A stretch of DNA of 43,981 nucleotides, from assembly GCA_018334055.1 (NCBI GenBank), contig JAGXSS010000035.1:1-43981 (forward strand). Direction: 5' to 3'. Positions within the stretch are counted from its first letter, which is position 1. Each line of letters begins with the position of its first letter. The position numbers were made by a program, and so were the translations under genes. Source of the stretch: Peptococcaceae bacterium. Its GTDB lineage: Bacteria; Bacillota; UBA994. A model generated the notes under the pieces. It was not told the origin of the DNA. It did not search any database and worked only from the letters and a program-made list of their open reading frames with translations. Shown in pieces: positions 22,350 through 32,000 of the stretch.

Positions 22350-22429
22350 GTGAGCCACCTTACCTTTCCGAAGGCTGATTTTGTGCGCCTTCACTCTATA
22401 GCACCTGCGGAGGGGGAATCGGACGGTCT
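22350..22429 (-). promoter_or_regulatory. Structured 5' leader, copy B
   Basis: Homologous to copy A at 18033-18124. It carries AGACCGTCCGA (22429-22419), CTATAGAGTGAAGGC, GCACAA and AGCCTTCGGAAAGG followed by GGCTCACATG at the gene start. GAAGGC (22392-22387) and GCCTTC (22375-22370) form a hairpin; TCCGA and TCGGA can pair instead and would mask the GGAAAGG site. It heads the DUF2800/DUF2815 operon. It may belong to the DUF2800-associated RNA motif class reported from comparative genomics, which I cannot check here. Confidence 0.65.
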
Positions 22430-22820
22430 ATAGGAGAGATTTTTTAAGCCTGGCTATGGCACGGTTCACCGCATGGCGGATGGCAGATTCATCTTTCCCC
22501 TCAAGTGCGGCTAGGTCTGTATAGGACCAGCCTTCCAGAAAGCATTTACGGATTAAGTACTGCTGGCGTTCGGTCAATTGCGACATGGCACCTATGACTA
22601 CTTCATTACATATGAGGTCCGCAAGTAAGTCCGTACCATCAGAGAAGAAACGCGCGTCCTCATGGGTGAAGGTGCTTAGTTGGGTATGGCGGTCTGGGCG
22701 GCTGTTACGCCGGTCGTTGCTCTTTTCCGCTTTCACGGATTCTAGATAGAAGGTTCCAACCTCCTCGGATACCTCCAGTTCGACAACTTTGCCGTCTGCA
22801 TCTTGGTAACTGATTTTCAT
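22428..22820 (-). CDS. Sigma-70 region 4-like phage regulator
   Basis: A 130-residue protein. The C-terminal half matches sigma region 4: LTERQQYLIRKCFLEGWSYT, then a helix-turn-helix (DLAALEGKDESAIRHAVNRA) and a basic end. The N-terminal 60 residues are charged and unrelated to sigma region 2. It is probably a transcription regulator of early genes rather than a full sigma factor. Translation may be controlled by a hairpin that masks its ribosome binding site (see 22824-22959). Confidence 0.75.
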   Translation of the reverse strand: MKISYQDADGKVVELEVSEEVGTFYLESVKAEKSNDRRNSRPDRHTQLSTFTHEDARFFSDGTDLLADLICNEVVIGAMSQLTERQQYLIRKCFLEGWSYTDLAALEGKDESAIRHAVNRAIARLKKSLL

Positions 22821-22823
22821 TGT

Positions 22824-22959
22824 TTGGCTCCCTTCTTTGCAGGAGCCAAGCGTGAGATATGTAAAAGAGCCGACTGGTCACGAAATACAAAAAGCCGGAT
22901 GGGTTACGAATTTGCATTTCGTAACTCATCCGGCCATTTGGTAGCTCGCACTCGGCTCC
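22824..22959 (-). promoter_or_regulatory. Terminator plus alternative helices in the leader of the sigma-like gene
   Basis: In minus-strand order: GGAGCCGAGTGCGAG (22959-22945); a 17-bp hairpin built from GCCGGATGAGTTACGAA (22934-22918) and TTCGTAACCCATCCGGC (22910-22894), followed by TTTTTGTATTT, which looks like an intrinsic terminator; and CTCACGCTTGGCTCC (22856-22842), which pairs with the first element over 14 of 15 positions. TTGGCTCC (22849-22842) can also pair perfectly with GGAGCCAA (22831-22824), which contains the start of the ribosome binding site region of the sigma-like gene. The two helices exclude each other, an attenuator-like layout. Confidence 0.65.
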
Positions 22960-22983
22960 GTTGCTCGGTATGAATTTATTCGG

Positions 22984-23130
22984 CTATTTTTTCTTTGGAG
23001 ACGGTTTTGTCTGTGACAGTGCACTGCCCGCCACTGATTTGGTCTTCGCACTGGTTCTACCATCTCTTAACAGAGACGATGCCTTGCGGGCGACCGAAGG
23101 GGATGTTTGTTTGCTGTTACTCTTAGCCAT
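22984..23130 (-). CDS. Small basic phage protein (48 aa)
   Basis: Found by translating the minus strand: a 48-residue, very basic, Ser/Lys-rich protein beginning MAKSNSKQTSPSVARKASSL and containing LLRDGRTSAKTKSVAGSALS before a poly-lysine end. AAAGGAGGTGAT, a near-perfect match to the 16S tail, lies just before the ATG. I have the impression that short proteins with the R-x-G-x-T-S...KSVA-x-SALSQ pattern recur in mobile elements, but I know no function. Its length, strong ribosome binding site and position in the early operon support a real gene. Confidence 0.75.
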   Translation of the reverse strand: MAKSNSKQTSPSVARKASSLLRDGRTSAKTKSVAGSALSQTKPSPKKK

Positions 23131-23165
23131 ATAATCACCTCCTTTCATCTGGCTTCAGGTTTCAG

Positions 23166-23318
23166 TTAAGAAGCCTTGATCTCCGATTCCTCATTACAGG
23201 GAACCGAGACAAACCTTCCGCACTGCGGACACTTGAGATTAACTTCAACCGTTTCCTTTGGCAGTTTGGATATGTCAAAGGCTCTTCGCCCACAGTTGGG
23301 GCACTTCATTTTTTTCAC
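23166..23318 (-). CDS. Small double zinc-ribbon protein
   Basis: A 50-residue protein with two CPxCG knuckles, CPNCGRRAF and CPQCGRF, separated by about 22 residues, so it should bind one zinc. It resembles short phage Com-like zinc fingers. I chose GTG at 23318 because GGAAGGAG lies seven bases upstream; an ATG three codons later is possible. It is the first gene after the downstream ImmR-like operator. Confidence 0.7.
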   Translation of the reverse strand: MKKMKCPNCGRRAFDISKLPKETVEVNLKCPQCGRFVSVPCNEESEIKAS

Positions 23319-23349
23319 AGGCAGTCTCCTTCCATAAAATACGTAATAC

Positions 23350-23374
23350 ATTAGCGCGTTCGCTTATTTCTAAC
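23350..23374 (-). promoter_or_regulatory. Repressor operator at the lytic operon
   Basis: The plus strand reads ATTAGCGCGTTCGCTTAT followed by TTCTAAC, 23 of 25 positions identical to the element at 24554-24578 and in the same orientation. The dyad ATTAGCG/CGCTTAT has one mismatch. It lies about 30 bp upstream of the first early gene. Core promoter boxes are not clear. Confidence 0.7.
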
Positions 23375-25005: not shown

Positions 25006-27117
25006 ATGGATCAGCAAGTATACAACAAACTCATTTCCTTTATCTGGGGCATTGCTAATGACTGTTTGGTTGATATATATCCGAACAGCGATTATCGGAA
25101 AATCATTCTGCCTATGATGGTCATCCGCCGCTTTGATGCTGTTCTGGAACCCACGAAGGAAGCTGTAAGGAGAATGAAGGCGGATTTGGACGCAGCTGGT
25201 ATACCCGAACAGGATGATGCTCTTTGCACTGTGGCTAGGGAGGCCTTCTGTAACTATTCAGATTTTACTTTGAGGGATCTCAAATCTCGTACGAACCAGC
25301 AGCAATTGAAAACGGACTTCATCGCATACTTGGATGGTTTTACAAAAAATGTTCAGGATATCATCACCAAGTTCAAGTTCAGGGAGCAGATTGACACACT
25401 ATCTTCACATGATGTGCTGGGGCTTTTGATTTCCAAATTTATCGACCCACAGATAAATTTAAGCAGCCGCCCGGTTATGAACCCTGACGGCAGTGAACGT
25501 CTGCCCGGGCTGGACAACCATTCTATGGGCACGGCTTTTGAAGAAATCATCCGTATGTTCAATGAGCAGACAAACATCACAGATGCCGGGCGTCATTTCA
25601 CGCCTAGGGACATCGTGGAGCTCATGGCGGATTTGGCGTTTGTCCCGGTTGCAGACCGCATTAAAAGCACGACTTATCGGATATATGACGGGGCTTGCGG
25701 AACCGGCGGTATGTTGACTGTTGCTGAAGAACGCATCAGTGAGATGTCCAAGAAAGCTGGAAAAACTGTGTCCATCTACTTGTACGGGCAAGAGAATGCC
25801 GATGAAACCTATGCCATCGCTCGTGCAGATATGTTAGTTAAGGGCGAAGGTAAGCAGGCAGATAATATTAAATTTGGTTCAACCATTTCAGATGACAAGT
25901 TTCCCCGTGAGACGTTTGACTTTATGATAAGCAATCCGCCTTTTGGTACTTCGTGGAAATCTGATTTAAAGGCCTGGGGCGACATTAAGAAGGAAGAAAT
26001 AACTGACTCTCGATTTGTAGTGAGCTATGGTGGCAACAGTGATTTTTCACTGCTTCCAGATATCGGCGATCCGCAAATGCTGTTCTTAGCTAACAACGTC
26101 AGTAAGATGAAGACGAACACAACGCTTGGCAGCCGAATTGTAGAAGTACATAACAGTTCGTCACTATTTACGGGTAAAGCGGGACAAGGCCCCAGCAATT
26201 TACGCAGATATATTATCGATCAAGACTTGCTTGAGGCGATCGTTGCGCTGCCTGAAAACATGTTTTATAACACAGGCATCGGAACATTTTTGTGGATCGT
26301 CGCAAACAAGAAATCCAAGGAACGTGAAGGTAAAATTCAGCTAATAGATGCAACGTCAATGAAATCCCCGCTTCGTAAAAACCTCGGAGAGAAGAAATGC
26401 GAGATCTCAAGAAATATTCGCGAAGAAATCCTACGTTTTTATATGCAGTTTGAGAATGCCGACGAGCAGTACAGCATGGTGTTTAATAATAGTGAATTTG
26501 GTTACTGGTCGATTGATATTATGCGTCCTTTAAGGTTGGCTGTTAAGTTCACAGAGGAGAACCTCTCGGCGCTTCTCGCGGGGGAATCAAGTGATACCGC
26601 GTTGTGCAATCTGATGCGAGAAGTGAAGCAGACTATAACTGAAGAAATTGTGTTGGACTACAACGCATTCATGGAGAGACTCCTCAAAGTTGCTGAAACG
26701 AAGGGCGTGAAGATGACGTCCAAACGCATCAAGGCAATTCGAACTTATTTTACCGATGTCTGCGAAGATGCGGAGAAGGTAATTCTAAAGCAACACTCTA
26801 AGGAAAATGCCAACCCTCTCTATGGTATTTTCCCCATAGAGTTCGAAATTGACAAAGCCCTAAAAGACACCGAACTTGTGCCTTTCACTTATGATGGCGG
26901 CGTTGAAGCATTCTTCCGTGATGAGATACTTCCGTATACCCCTGACGCATGGATTGACAAAGATTCTATCACCATTGGTTATGAGTTAAGTTTTGCGAAG
27001 TATTTCTACAAGCCGGTTGAACTAAGAACTGTTGATGAAATAATTGCAGACATCGTCGCAATCGAAAAGGATACGGATGGCATTCTCGCAGGGATAATTA
27101 GCGAGGTGAAACCATGA
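25006..27117 (+). CDS. hsdM: Type I restriction-modification methyltransferase subunit
   Basis: A 703-residue N6-adenine methyltransferase subunit. An HsdM N-terminal helical domain (about 1-150) precedes the catalytic domain: HFTPRDIVELM at about 197-207, SAM motif YDGACGTGG at 227-235 and catalytic NPPF at 310-313. The C-terminal 200 residues form a helical, subunit-contacting extension, longer than in E. coli HsdM. GAGGAGG lies upstream. It modifies the site chosen by HsdS and is required for restriction with HsdR. hsdS starts within its stop (ATGA overlap). Confidence 0.95.
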   Translation: MDQQVYNKLISFIWGIANDCLVDIYPNSDYRKIILPMMVIRRFDAVLEPTKEAVRRMKADLDAAGIPEQDDALCTVAREAFCNYSDFTLRDLKSRTNQQQLKTDFIAYLDGFTKNVQDIITKFKFREQIDTLSSHDVLGLLISKFIDPQINLSSRPVMNPDGSERLPGLDNHSMGTAFEEIIRMFNEQTNITDAGRHFTPRDIVELMADLAFVPVADRIKSTTYRIYDGACGTGGMLTVAEERISEMSKKAGKTVSIYLYGQENADETYAIARADMLVKGEGKQADNIKFGSTISDDKFPRETFDFMISNPPFGTSWKSDLKAWGDIKKEEITDSRFVVSYGGNSDFSLLPDIGDPQMLFLANNVSKMKTNTTLGSRIVEVHNSSSLFTGKAGQGPSNLRRYIIDQDLLEAIVALPENMFYNTGIGTFLWIVANKKSKEREGKIQLIDATSMKSPLRKNLGEKKCEISRNIREEILRFYMQFENADEQYSMVFNNSEFGYWSIDIMRPLRLAVKFTEENLSALLAGESSDTALCNLMREVKQTITEEIVLDYNAFMERLLKVAETKGVKMTSKRIKAIRTYFTDVCEDAEKVILKQHSKENANPLYGIFPIEFEIDKALKDTELVPFTYDGGVEAFFRDEILPYTPDAWIDKDSITIGYELSFAKYFYKPVELRTVDEIIADIVAIEKDTDGILAGIISEVKP

Positions 27118-28478
27118 GCCAATACTGGTTTGGTGACCTACCATCTCACTGGAATGTACGCAAGGTTCGAGAGCTGTTCTCTGAGCGTAATGAAAAGGTA
27201 TCAGATATAGATTATCCTCCTCTTTCAGTGGGGTATATGGGAGTTGTGCCGCAACTTGAGACGGCTATGAAAACAAGCAACGGTGATAACAGAAAGTTAA
27301 TCAAGCAGGGCGATTTCGCCATTAATAGCCGTTCCGACAGAAAAGGTGCCGGTGGCATCTCAAAGTATGACGGATCCGCTTCTTTAATCATAACGGTATT
27401 AAAACCACAAGAAGATATCAACGGGTGGTATTTTCACTATTTGTTCCGAAGTAGCGGCTTTGTCGAAGAGTATTATCGTAATGGACGTGGCTTGGTTTCT
27501 GATTTATGGACAACCCGATATGATGAGATGCGAAATATCATCGTTCCCACTCCGCCCCGCGTTGAACAGGACCAGATTGTCCGTTTCCTTGATTGGAAAG
27601 TTGGCAATATTAGTCGTTTCATTCGCGAAAAAAGGAAAGAAATATCCCGACTCAATGAGCTTATAAACACACGTATTAAGAATGCCGTCTTGTATGGAAT
27701 ACACCCTGGCGTACCTCCCCAAGAGAGCGGTATTGGTTGGATTGGGAACATACCAGCCCACTGGGATGTTCGGATGCTGTCTCAAGAAGCGACAGAACAG
27801 GCCCTTTCTAACAAAACTGTCCACAACCAAAATCTACTTTCTTTGAGCTACGGTAAAATCGTTAATAAGGACATCAATAAAACGGATGGTCTACTCCCTG
27901 CTTCGTTTGACACATATCAGGTTGTGAATGACGGCAATATCATCCTTCGGCTCACGGATTTACAGAATGACAAAAAAAGCCTTCGCGTTGGGCTTGTAAC
28001 CCAAACAGGTATTATTACCTCTGCCTATACTTGCCTTAAACCGAGAGCGCATGTCTTGCCGCACTATCTGTATCTGCTTCTGCATTCATACGATGTCTGC
28101 AAGGTGTTTTACGGAATGGGTGGTGGCGTTAGGCAGAGCATTGGGTATAACGAGATCCGGCGCATGCTCCTTCCTTTGCCAGGGCGTGACGAGCAACAAG
28201 CGATTGTGGACTATTGTTATAGAATACGTGAGCAAACTGAGCAGATGATATCTGCCTTGAAACGTGAAATTGGACTAGTTACTGAGTACCGCACAAGGCT
28301 TATTTCAGACGTGGTGACAGGCAAAATTGATGTACGAGACATCGAGGTTCCGATATTCGAACCTGATGAAGCTGACACCGAAGTCGACCTCATTAACGAG
28401 GAGACGGATGATGAAGCTGACGTTGAAAAGACCGCTGATGACGTGGAGGATGATGAAAGTGCCCACGACCAACACTAG
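27114..28478 (+). CDS. hsdS: Type I restriction-modification specificity subunit
   Basis: A 454-residue subunit with two target recognition domains. Each starts with a related line (GDLPSHWNVRKVRELFSE near 7; IGNIPAHWDVRMLSQE near 210) and ends with a conserved helix (QDQIVRFLDWKVGNISRFIR and EQQAIVDYCYRIREQTEQMI). The recognised bipartite sequence cannot be predicted here. The last about 45 residues, after VVTGKIDVRDIEVP, are strongly acidic (ETDDEADVEKTADDVEDD), unusual for HsdS. This tail is encoded where hsdR begins. Confidence 0.94.
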   Translation: MSQYWFGDLPSHWNVRKVRELFSERNEKVSDIDYPPLSVGYMGVVPQLETAMKTSNGDNRKLIKQGDFAINSRSDRKGAGGISKYDGSASLIITVLKPQEDINGWYFHYLFRSSGFVEEYYRNGRGLVSDLWTTRYDEMRNIIVPTPPRVEQDQIVRFLDWKVGNISRFIREKRKEISRLNELINTRIKNAVLYGIHPGVPPQESGIGWIGNIPAHWDVRMLSQEATEQALSNKTVHNQNLLSLSYGKIVNKDINKTDGLLPASFDTYQVVNDGNIILRLTDLQNDKKSLRVGLVTQTGIITSAYTCLKPRAHVLPHYLYLLLHSYDVCKVFYGMGGGVRQSIGYNEIRRMLLPLPGRDEQQAIVDYCYRIREQTEQMISALKREIGLVTEYRTRLISDVVTGKIDVRDIEVPIFEPDEADTEVDLINEETDDEADVEKTADDVEDDESAHDQH

Positions 28479-31413
28479 GGAAAACGGTTTTGAAACCTTG
28501 ATAGTGAACTGGCTCGTATCGGAGAACAAGTACGAGCATGGTCAAAACCATGACTATAATAAAGAGTACGCCATTGATGAGACTCGCCTTTTCCGCTTTC
28601 TAGACGACACGCAGCCGGGAAAGCTGAAGGAACTCCGCATTCTAGACAGTGCCATAGAGAAGAGCAAGTTCTTCACGAGGCTCCACGAAAAACTCCGTAC
28701 CGACGGCGTCATAGAAATCCTACGGAAAGGTTTCCGCTACAAGCATTTGACGCTCGACATGTTTTTTGTAACACCTTCTAGCGGCAATGCCGTCGCTGCT
28801 GCCTTGTATGAGAAGAACATTTTCAGTGTGACGCGGCAACTTAAATATTCCAAAACCAATCCCATGCTGGCCATAGATATGGTTATCTTTCTGAATGGGT
28901 TGCCGATTATCACCTTCGAGCTTAAGAATCAATTAACAAAACAGACGGTCGACGACGCCGTCCACCAGTATAAAGCCGACAGGGACAGCAAATCAGAGCC
29001 CTTGTTCGCTTTTAAGAGGTGTATCGTCCACTTTGCTGTCGATGGTAACGAAGTGAAGATGTGTACAGAGCTTAATGGGAATAGGTCATGGTTCCTGCCA
29101 TTCAACAAGGGTTACAACAACGGCGCAGGAAACCCGCCGAATCCAAGTGGAATAAAGACAGACTATCTTTGGAAAGAAACTCTTACCAAAGGTGAAGTAT
29201 CAAATATCATTGAGAACTTCGCACAGGTTGTAGAAGAGGAAAACAGTATCACCGGAGAAAAGACGTTAAAACAAATATTCCCGCGATATCACCAACTGCA
29301 GGTGGTTAAATCGCTTCTTGCAGAGGCGCGTCATAGCGGCGTCGGTCAGCGTTACCTTATCCAGCACAGTGCAGGTAGCGGCAAGTCCAACTCAATTGCT
29401 TGGCTCTCCCATCAACTAGTAACACTGAAGAGTGGCGGTAAGGAGATATTCGACACTGTAATAGTAGTCACTGACCGCATTAACCTTGATAAGCAAATTA
29501 AGCACACCATCCGGCAGTTTATGCAAGTCTCCTCCACCGTTGGCTGGGCAAAGGACTCAACTGAACTAAAAAAGCTGCTTGCTGAGGGCAAGAAGATTAT
29601 CGTGACCATCGTTCATAAATTTCAGTTTATTCTTGATGATATCTCCAGTTTCCACCAGGATAAGAACTTCGCCATTGTGATAGACGAAGCCCATTCCAGT
29701 CAGAGTGGTAGCCTTTCAGCTAAAATGAATATCGCACTCTCGGGTAACCTCGGTGATGACGGCGACGACCTTGAGGACAAGATAAACACTATCATAGAAG
29801 GCCGTAAGATGCTTAAGAACGCCAGCTATTTTGCCTTTACCGCAACACCGAAAAACAAAACCGAAGAGATGTTTGGGCTGGAGGTGCGGCAGCCAGACAG
29901 AACCAGGCAGTACAGGCCTCACTATGTCTACACTATGAAACAGGCCATTGAAGAAGGTTTTATTATGGATGTTCTACGGTTCTACACGCCTATACAGAGT
30001 TTTTATCATATTGCCAAGACAGTTGAGGACGATCCGATGTTTGACAAGAAACGTGCCCAGAAAATGCTCAAATATTACGTTGAGTCCAACGAATACGCTA
30101 TTCAGCAGAAGGCAGAAATCATTGTGGAGCACTTTCACACAGAGGTTATCTCCAGGGGGAAAATCAGTGGGAAAGCACGTGCGATGGTTGTCACGAGCAG
30201 TATAAAACGCGCGATAGAGTATTACTTTGCTATCACCACTCTCTTAAAAACACGTAAGAGCCAGTACAAGGCGATAATCGCTTTTTCGGGCGATTGTGAG
30301 TTCAACGGGCATACGGTTAACGAGGCATCACTTAACGGTTTTCCGACCTCTAAGATTGAAGAAAACTTCAAGCAAGACCCGTATCGTATTTTGGTGGTGG
30401 CCGATAAATTTCAAACCGGCTTTGACGAGCCGCTGCTACATACAATGTATGTGGACAAACCCTTGTCGGACATCAAGGCAGTACAGACACTCTCACGCCT
30501 TAATCGGAGTCGAGCCGATAAACGGGATACGTTTATACTTGACTTCATTAACAAGCCTGAAGATATCAAGAAAGCCTTCGATAGGTACTACAAGACAACC
30601 ATCCTTTCTGGAGAAACTGATCCAAACAAGCTGAATGACCTCATCGAAACGATGGAGCCTTTACAGGTTTTCACGCAGGCTCAGGTAGATTCTTTTGTGG
30701 AACTATATCTTGGTAATGCGCCGCGCGAAACACTTGACCCGATTCTGGATAGATGTGTGGAGAATTATGAAGCCCTTGAAGTCGAAGAGCAAATTGAATT
30801 CAAGAGCTGCGCAAAGTCCTTCGTGCGCACTTATAATTTCTTGGCAGCTATCCTGCCATATGGCTCACCGGAATGGGAGAAGCTGTCCATATTTCTCAAT
30901 TTGCTTGTTGGGAAACTCCCTTCCCCTGTTGACGAAAACCTTGCCGAAGGCATCCTTGAACGTATTGATTTGGAGAGCTACAGAGCCGTTGCAAGGGAGA
31001 CGATGGCGATTGCCTTGGAAGATGCAGACGCCGAGATAGCGCCGATTCCAATAAGTACAGATGTTGGCATCCCAGTGCCTGAGCTGGACTTACTTAGTCG
31101 CATTCTGGCCACGTTCCATGATTTGTTCGGTGACATAGAATGGACGGATGAGGACAAAGTTGAAAAGCAAGTTTCGGAACTGCCTGACATTGTCAAGAAA
31201 GATGAGCGTTATCAGAATGCCATGCGTAATTCTGATGAACAGAATGCTCGTGTGGAGAGCGAGCGAGCCACTGTTGAAGCAATACTGGCAACGATGTCAT
31301 CGGGGGTAGAGCTGTTTAAGTTCTTCAATAGCAACCAGTCGCTAAGAAAGTGGATTCTCGACATGGTGTTTAACTCTACTTATGAGCCCGGTGGCGGCGA
31401 ACGGTCAGCGTAG
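28453..31413 (+). CDS. hsdR: Type I restriction subunit
   Basis: Translocase-endonuclease of the type I complex, about 986 residues. The nuclease core shows MVIFLNGLPIITFELKNQ (FELK near 155). Walker A is HSAGSGKSNS near 305, the DEAH-type motif is VIDEAHSSQSG near 410, then FTATPKNKTEEM and KFQTGFDEPLLHTMYVDKP, and the typical QTLSRLNRSR. The start is uncertain: ATG at 28450 or 28453, or GTG at 28459, which is best spaced from GTGGAGG. All overlap hsdS. A hairpin terminator lies downstream. Confidence 0.94.
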   Translation: MKVPTTNTRENGFETLIVNWLVSENKYEHGQNHDYNKEYAIDETRLFRFLDDTQPGKLKELRILDSAIEKSKFFTRLHEKLRTDGVIEILRKGFRYKHLTLDMFFVTPSSGNAVAAALYEKNIFSVTRQLKYSKTNPMLAIDMVIFLNGLPIITFELKNQLTKQTVDDAVHQYKADRDSKSEPLFAFKRCIVHFAVDGNEVKMCTELNGNRSWFLPFNKGYNNGAGNPPNPSGIKTDYLWKETLTKGEVSNIIENFAQVVEEENSITGEKTLKQIFPRYHQLQVVKSLLAEARHSGVGQRYLIQHSAGSGKSNSIAWLSHQLVTLKSGGKEIFDTVIVVTDRINLDKQIKHTIRQFMQVSSTVGWAKDSTELKKLLAEGKKIIVTIVHKFQFILDDISSFHQDKNFAIVIDEAHSSQSGSLSAKMNIALSGNLGDDGDDLEDKINTIIEGRKMLKNASYFAFTATPKNKTEEMFGLEVRQPDRTRQYRPHYVYTMKQAIEEGFIMDVLRFYTPIQSFYHIAKTVEDDPMFDKKRAQKMLKYYVESNEYAIQQKAEIIVEHFHTEVISRGKISGKARAMVVTSSIKRAIEYYFAITTLLKTRKSQYKAIIAFSGDCEFNGHTVNEASLNGFPTSKIEENFKQDPYRILVVADKFQTGFDEPLLHTMYVDKPLSDIKAVQTLSRLNRSRADKRDTFILDFINKPEDIKKAFDRYYKTTILSGETDPNKLNDLIETMEPLQVFTQAQVDSFVELYLGNAPRETLDPILDRCVENYEALEVEEQIEFKSCAKSFVRTYNFLAAILPYGSPEWEKLSIFLNLLVGKLPSPVDENLAEGILERIDLESYRAVARETMAIALEDADAEIAPIPISTDVGIPVPELDLLSRILATFHDLFGDIEWTDEDKVEKQVSELPDIVKKDERYQNAMRNSDEQNARVESERATVEAILATMSSGVELFKFFNSNQSLRKWILDMVFNSTYEPGGGERSA

Positions 31414-31649: not shown

Positions 31650-32000
31650 TGGTGGAGGCGGGGGGAGTCGAACCCACCGTCCGAAGATATGCCTGCCAGC
31701 GCTTCTCCGAGTGCAGTCAGCGATTTGGTGATTCGCCCCTTCCTACGCCCACTGACGGGCTGAGGACCTCGCTAGTCTATTGTTTTCGGGAGACTTACTA
31801 GACGCTCAGTAACCCTACTCCTGCTTTCATGACGCCGGTGACCGCCCTCGCAGGAAAAGTGCGGGCCGACGACTGCCTAACTAGGCAGCGAACGCTAACT
31901 TGTTGTTTGCGTTTGTTTTAGTTTTCCCTGTTTTACGGGTATCAGGACCCCGACTCGCTGCACTGACCAACTCTACCCCCGTCGAAACCTTTACGCCCCC
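31650..32000 (-). ncRNA. ssrA: Transfer-messenger RNA
   Basis: The 5' end GGGGGCG (32000-31994), followed by TAAAGGTTTCGACGGGG, pairs with CGCCTCC near the 3' end to form the acceptor stem. The 3' part ends GGTTCGACTCCCCCCGCC, then TCCACCA with an encoded CCA at 31652-31650. The tag reading frame (31910-31881) encodes ANNKLAFAA then TAG, a normal hydrophobic degradation tag. It rescues stalled ribosomes with SmpB. The mature 5' end is only four bases from the smpB stop, so the two are probably co-transcribed and the RNA trimmed. The 3' end is a common integrase target. Confidence 0.96.

Follow-up and report, generated by a model that had tools for sequence, protein, structure and literature searches.

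A candidate antiterminator RNA paired with a Com-like zinc-ribbon gene at the head of a prophage early operon

The locus raises the question of how a gene for a sigma-like protein is controlled by the strongly structured leader that precedes it on the minus strand, 4–160 nt before the ATG. The window (the whole stretch of 43,981 nucleotides analysed, from a Peptococcaceae bacterium) holds a prophage with genes for TerL, capsid, antirepressor, DNA polymerase A, ssDNA-binding protein and DUF2800; a close relative is a phage labelled Ca. Heliusvirales (PV036453). An XRE repressor, an ImmA-like peptidase, a com-like gene, a small basic protein, the RNA element described below, the sigma-like gene and the replication genes follow one another co-directionally in that order. 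Type I restriction-modification genes (HsdM, HsdS and HsdR) occupy 25006–31413, between the prophage early region and a tmRNA gene (31650–32000) that is likely to be the integration site. The minimum free energy (MFE) of the leader is −65.2 kcal/mol, compared with −38.7 kcal/mol for dinucleotide shuffles (z −7.2; 0/200). A preliminary description had placed a transcription regulator downstream, and the gene indeed encodes a sigma-70 region 4; other relatives have other sigma-like or HTH genes at the same position.

22428–22820, minus strand: regulated gene, 130-aa protein with sigma-70 region 4 (PF08281, E 1.9e-8).
22984–23148, minus strand: small, basic protein of 54 aa (phrog_5079), encoded after the com-like gene and ahead of the element; absent in several relatives.
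23166–23351, minus strand: zinc-ribbon protein of Com-like type, the putative partner acting in trans; it matches phrog_6417 ('translational regulator') with E 6e-5.

The 17-bp hairpin and T-run of the preliminary description are present on the minus strand (22889–22935), as are all the other elements that it named. The hairpin, GGCCGGATGAGTTACGAA..TTCGTAACCCATCCGGCT, has 17 pairs including one A·C mismatch and is followed by TTTTTG. A simple terminator scan of the sequence did not list it, probably because the stem carries this mismatch. A U-rich tract (at least 6 T per 8-nt window, no more than 75 nt past the core element) is found in 51 of 53 relatives; in L012, L026, L028, L029 and L073 the run of U immediately following the hairpin is broken.

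22926–22973, minus strand: core element P1-J-P2-J-P1, TCATACCGAGCAACGGAGCCGAGTGCGAGCTACCAAATGGCCGGATGA (R2 covariance model, 78.4 bits, E 1.5e-23).
22966–22973, minus strand: P1 5' strand UCAUaCCG, with a bulged A; its outer pairs covary.
22940–22959, minus strand: P2 hairpin GGAGC.C....G.a.GCU.a.CC, with two bulged A's; 99.7% of alignment cells paired, four pairs with two-sided changes.
22926–22932, minus strand: P1 3' strand CGGAUGA, identical with the lower 5' arm of the terminator and the proposed switch point; the arms change together.
22893–22935, minus strand: terminator hairpin T5:T3, −25.9 kcal/mol; 93.5% of cells paired, five pairs with two-sided changes.
22889–22893, minus strand: terminator U-tract, read from the sequence.
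22877–22891, minus strand: T' segment, a proposed read-through lock, which pairs at 15 of 15 positions with 22911–22925 and takes up the U-tract.

Relatives were collected by a search with the sigma-like protein, which gave 17 viral and 7 genome loci, and more were added by DNA patterns. About half of the viral loci carry a near-identical 5' leader, and a hyperconserved stretch, CATACCGAGCAACGGAGCC..GAGCTACCAAATRGCCGGATGA, runs across the leaders. Diverged copies, in part arranged as tandem pairs, came to light in genomes from several further families with a first covariance model (R1), and a second (R2) scored 64 copies in the collected loci; distribution beyond the sampled phylum is based on viral contigs. 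The R1 match in L087 and the R2 matches in L094, L096 and L108 were set aside as weakly scoring chance matches, L087 and L108 being also without an adjoining com-like gene. Tandem core elements, each with its own hairpin and with one com-like gene upstream, are seen in L083/L088, L086, L111, L112, L113, L120 and L148. At L151 (1069–1320), the one locus read among gut phages of Coprococcus, Dorea and Agathobacter, a com-like gene is followed by a diverged element, GTACTGAGCGAATAGGTGC..GCAACCAATGCCTGACG, that the model did not score, and by a terminator.

Comparison of about 57 distinct relatives defines a conserved 52-nt element in which helix P1 (UCAUaCCG:CGGAUGA) closes hairpin P2, with two bulged A's and the general form GGNNNC...GaN'N'N'aCC. 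Among 24 diverse cores, in an alignment that was not fitted to the covariance model, 96.2% of the P1 and P2 cells are paired compared with 19–37% when the strands are slid, and six pairs show two-sided changes. The 57 distinct copies, aligned by fitting to the model, give 95.5% compared with 23–43%, with two-sided changes in seven pairs and 87 cells; none of 500 shuffles was as high in two-sided cells or in covariation score, one control ignoring the relatedness of the copies. The outer P1 pairs run through the types UA/AU/CG/GC, CG/UA/AU/GC and AU/CG/GC, with arms such as UCAU/AUGA, CUAU/AUAG, GGCU/AGCC and AACU/AGUU. The joining segments CCGAGCAR and ACCRAAU are near-invariant, an invariance that partly reflects how the copies were selected, by patterns and models that fix parts of the core. 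A leader peptide within the core, ATGGCCGGATGA (M-A-G-stop), was rejected as a candidate, its ATG being lost in relatives (AAATAGCC).

The leader and its relatives have no family match in Rfam at the gathering threshold, and at a loose threshold only weak chance matches; no description of the element was found in the open-access literature. It is apparently an undescribed RNA switch that is widespread in Firmicutes phages.

Because one stretch of RNA serves both as the 3' strand of P1 and as the lower 5' arm of the terminator, only one of the two can form at a time, which makes P1 an antiterminator. The P1 5' arm, T5 and T3 vary jointly over 22 distinct outer P1 arms (GGCU/AGCC in L131, CUAU/AUAG in L122), and such joint changes are the comparative signature expected of a terminator/antiterminator pair. 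This competition is present in all true relatives. When the window sequence is folded before T3 has been made, P1-P2 is the MFE structure at −18.5 kcal/mol, and the terminator wins once T3 is present. With P1 and P2 forced, the freed upper arm of the terminator forms the 15-bp T5:T' helix. Two-sided changes in this helix are found in 17 cells, a level reached by 0 of 500 shuffles, and it too looks to be under selection within its subgroup. The T-run was rejected as the sole conserved feature, since it is broken in several relatives whereas the T' pairing is kept.

The element nearly always has a com-like gene ahead of it. A small CxxC..CxxC ORF lies no more than 350 nt upstream in 50 of the 56 loci with enough upstream sequence, compared with 16 of 1911 random positions in the same loci (0.8%; P 4e-97). 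Conversely, 399 genomes gave 11 strong com-like genes, nine of them with the element downstream. The six exceptions are L072, in which the com gene is apparently broken, L148, in which a com-like gene is present and possibly just past the distance limit, L099, and L135, L144 and L106, which like L102 (uncounted, its upstream sequence being short) have a different small upstream protein without cysteines. These last four loci carry P2 of GGAUCC/GGGUCC and P1 of AAC/GUU types, and their protein, MKRIPIRD..PRILDYLRDDDGTEMIETK.., is possibly a cousin of the Com-like proteins. The genes downstream are diverse (sigma-like of several families, XRE and HTH), which shows that the element goes with the com-like gene and not with the gene behind it. 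In gut phages of Coprococcus, Dorea and Agathobacter the com-like gene is annotated as 'translational regulator'.

Family assignment of the protein comes from profile matches. Relatives match phrog_6417 with E-values down to 6.7e-11, and the L081 protein matches phrog_13819 (gpCom) with E 3.3e-7. Most of the proteins, that of the window included, fall below the 22.9-bit cut-off of PF10122 (Zn_ribbon_Com), the L080 homologue of the window protein scoring 15.4 and L083 alone passing, at 25.4; we therefore name them 'Com-like' and not 'Com'. An AlphaFold2 model (pLDDT 94.7) is four-stranded and zinc-ribbon-like; a fold search with it gave only weak bL33-like zinc-ribbon matches, and a PDB sequence search with the protein only generic zinc fingers. 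From the genomic association and the family, the Com-like protein is likely to be an antitermination factor.

Taken together, we consider it probable that the leader is an attenuator whose P1-P2 antiterminator is recognised by the Com-like protein, whose gene belongs to the same operon and lies shortly upstream. According to the computed folds, P1-P2 would form first during transcription; emergence of T3 would then let the terminator capture the P1 3' strand, as folding and covariation both suggest, and transcription would stop before the sigma-like and replication genes. Once accumulated, the Com-like protein would hold P1-P2, leaving the terminator incomplete so that polymerase continues, and the U-tract may be sequestered in the T5:T' helix during read-through. 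In leaders of sigma genes a hairpin that hides the ribosome binding site (RBS) would add a translational layer; the upstream arm described below might open it, or the Com-like protein might, in the way that Com acts on the mom transcript. The early operon would thus wait for the first small protein that it encodes itself.

The preliminary description had proposed a riboswitch or protein-responsive attenuator. The latter is of the right type; what decides, however, is the competition of P1-P2 with the 5' arm of the terminator. A riboswitch, with P1-J-P2 as the aptamer, a small molecule or ion that stabilises P1 and so causes antitermination, and the com-like gene as a mere fixed neighbour, seems to us unlikely. 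It would account for the near-invariant joining regions and the several tandem copies, and a P1 3' strand lying inside the terminator is the architecture of an ON-riboswitch; against this, the element is seen only in phage-like loci, where it adjoins the gene of a small protein of RNA-binding type; it controls no metabolic gene and matches no Rfam riboswitch.

We think it slightly less probable still that P1-P2, with or without the Com-like protein, loads on to RNA polymerase in the manner of put RNA or nut/N and carries it past many terminators. Processive antitermination of this kind would suit an element with invariant joining regions at the start of an early operon, with timing like that of lambda N, but would have no need for P1 to share a strand, and to covary, with the adjacent terminator.

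The attenuator recognised by the Com-like protein must also be weighed against the translational switch of the preliminary description, in which TTGGCTCC, the RBS and an upstream arm are the competitors and the hairpin serves only as a spacer.

22842–22856, minus strand: A'' segment, CTCACGCTTGGCTCC, which pairs with 22945–22959, or with the RBS via TTGGCTCC.
22824–22832, minus strand: RBS segment GGGAGCCAA, sequestered by TTGGCTCC in a hairpin of −14.6 kcal/mol.

As described, TTGGCTCC (22842–22849) can pair either with GGAGCCGAG upstream (22951–22959) or with the RBS, GGAGCCAA (22824–22831), and the upstream pairing is longer than first noted, extending over 14 of 15 positions (GGAGCCGAGTGCGAG:CTCACGCTTGGCTCC; A:A''). 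The pairings of the proposed three-way, mutually exclusive competition thus exist, but they are not the core of the element, where P1 against the terminator is decisive. Both pairings are conserved in 24 relatives, with 91.0% (A:A'') and 91.1% (A'':RBS) of cells paired compared with at most 56–59% when slid, and anti-RBS segments are kept in the unrelated class II leaders discussed below; both points favour the translational switch. Covariation, however, is not above shuffles for A:A'', A'':RBS or A:A', though 86–91% of cells are paired, a lack explained, for A:A'' and A'':RBS, by the constraint that P2, which the preliminary description had not seen, places on the upstream arm. Double changes in this layer are few; L027 differs on both sides, TTGACTCC/GGAGTCGA. 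Close relatives keep the alternative pairing, but the TTGGCTCC/RBS layer is limited to sigma-gene leaders and is missing from distant relatives with the same core, such as L081 and L082. Computation of competing folds showed P1-P2 and the terminator to alternate, but put a forced A:A'' fold about 9 kcal/mol above the MFE. Moreover, A:A'' uses sequence 3' of the terminator and so cannot prevent termination, and once P1-P2 has formed, the upstream arm is tied up in P2 and so cannot free the RBS. For want of covariation above shuffles we rejected A:A' and A:A'' as the main switch, and we regard a purely translational mechanism as very improbable. The RBS hairpin stays closed in the P1-P2 state, and translation is not yet accounted for by the model; it is plausible that this hairpin is a second layer in some relatives.

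That the hairpin is the ordinary terminator of the repressor/com transcript, as its strength and its place immediately 3' of the com gene might suggest, with the conserved upstream sequence having an unrelated role, is the most improbable reading, a plain terminator having no need for covariation in P1 and P2.

The attenuator that we favour shares features with several known systems. RAT/LicT-type antiterminators are protein-stabilised RNA hairpins whose 3' strand overlaps the 5' arm of a terminator, and the overlap here is the same; the RNA sequence and the protein family differ, and PTS-type regulation domains are absent. Lambda N is an early protein encoded before the terminator that blocks its operon, and its action, by way of nut boxes and Nus factors, is processive. 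The logic of opening an early operon by antitermination would be shared by a terminator that separates the repressor end from the replication end and yields to a product synthesised shortly ahead of it, but the antiterminator here overlaps a single terminator. The Bacillus trp leader combines terminator/antiterminator competition with an RBS-hiding hairpin after read-through, and TRAP represses it in response to tryptophan; its two layers resemble those proposed here, but RNA and protein are unrelated.

The closest parallel in the protein is with phage Mu, in which com and mom form one operon and Com activates mom by binding a hairpin that adjoins an RBS-hiding structure in its mRNA (PMC6483171). 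Common to both would be a small phage zinc-binding protein, a hairpin in the leader of the target gene and an RBS-hiding structure beside it. Mu Com, however, is known as a translational activator; the conserved target here would be an antiterminator that overlaps a terminator, in Firmicutes hosts, with sigma-like, HTH or replication genes under control in place of mom. The Com motif is GAGNNCC/CCNNGAG (mom 19-mer CUGCGAGCAUCCC); the invariant CCGAGCA of the core does not exactly match this SELEX motif and is suggestive only. Attenuators and Com are themselves known, but we know of no Com-like/antiterminator pair across Firmicutes phages.

Other leaders occupy the same site. Class II leaders (L043–L065, L002, L013, L016, L021 and L022) precede genes of the same sigma-like families there and consist of an unrelated RNA, AAATCCGC..GA.CGC.AGACGGCAG..., a terminator and an anti-RBS segment, with their own protein of about 50 aa ahead (MxEVRNLDxKRVCDISxD..EIxxKxCxTRIxANPDGT). 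We do not claim kinship of this protein with the Com-like zinc ribbons, hhalign giving a probability of only 20% and Foldseek nothing convincing. Two more unrelated leader types precede the same sigma-like gene, in L003/L020 and in L004/L014/L017, one behind a Lar-like zinc-ribbon gene and one with a long GACGGCGGGATGCA/TGCATCCCACCGTC pairing. In L022 (2000–3242) one module apparently replaces the other, the remains of a com-like gene and a weak element of class I being followed by a protein and an element of class II and then by the sigma-like gene. On a broader proposal we are evenly divided: that Com-like ribbons form a large phage antitermination family with a cognate P1-P2 behind the gene, that other phages have unrelated pairs at this position (class II, with its small all-beta protein), and that this early-operon control point is modular and repeatedly replaced.

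If the attenuator operates as proposed, it would assign both a role and a target RNA to a group of small phage zinc ribbons that is common and mostly unannotated, and would explain how early genes are kept off while the repressor operon is transcribed. The switch would be compact, a protein of about 50 aa with an RNA of about 50 nt, and the reach of the Com family, so far the translation of one gene, mom, would be extended to antitermination of transcription in the early operons of phages throughout the Firmicutes.
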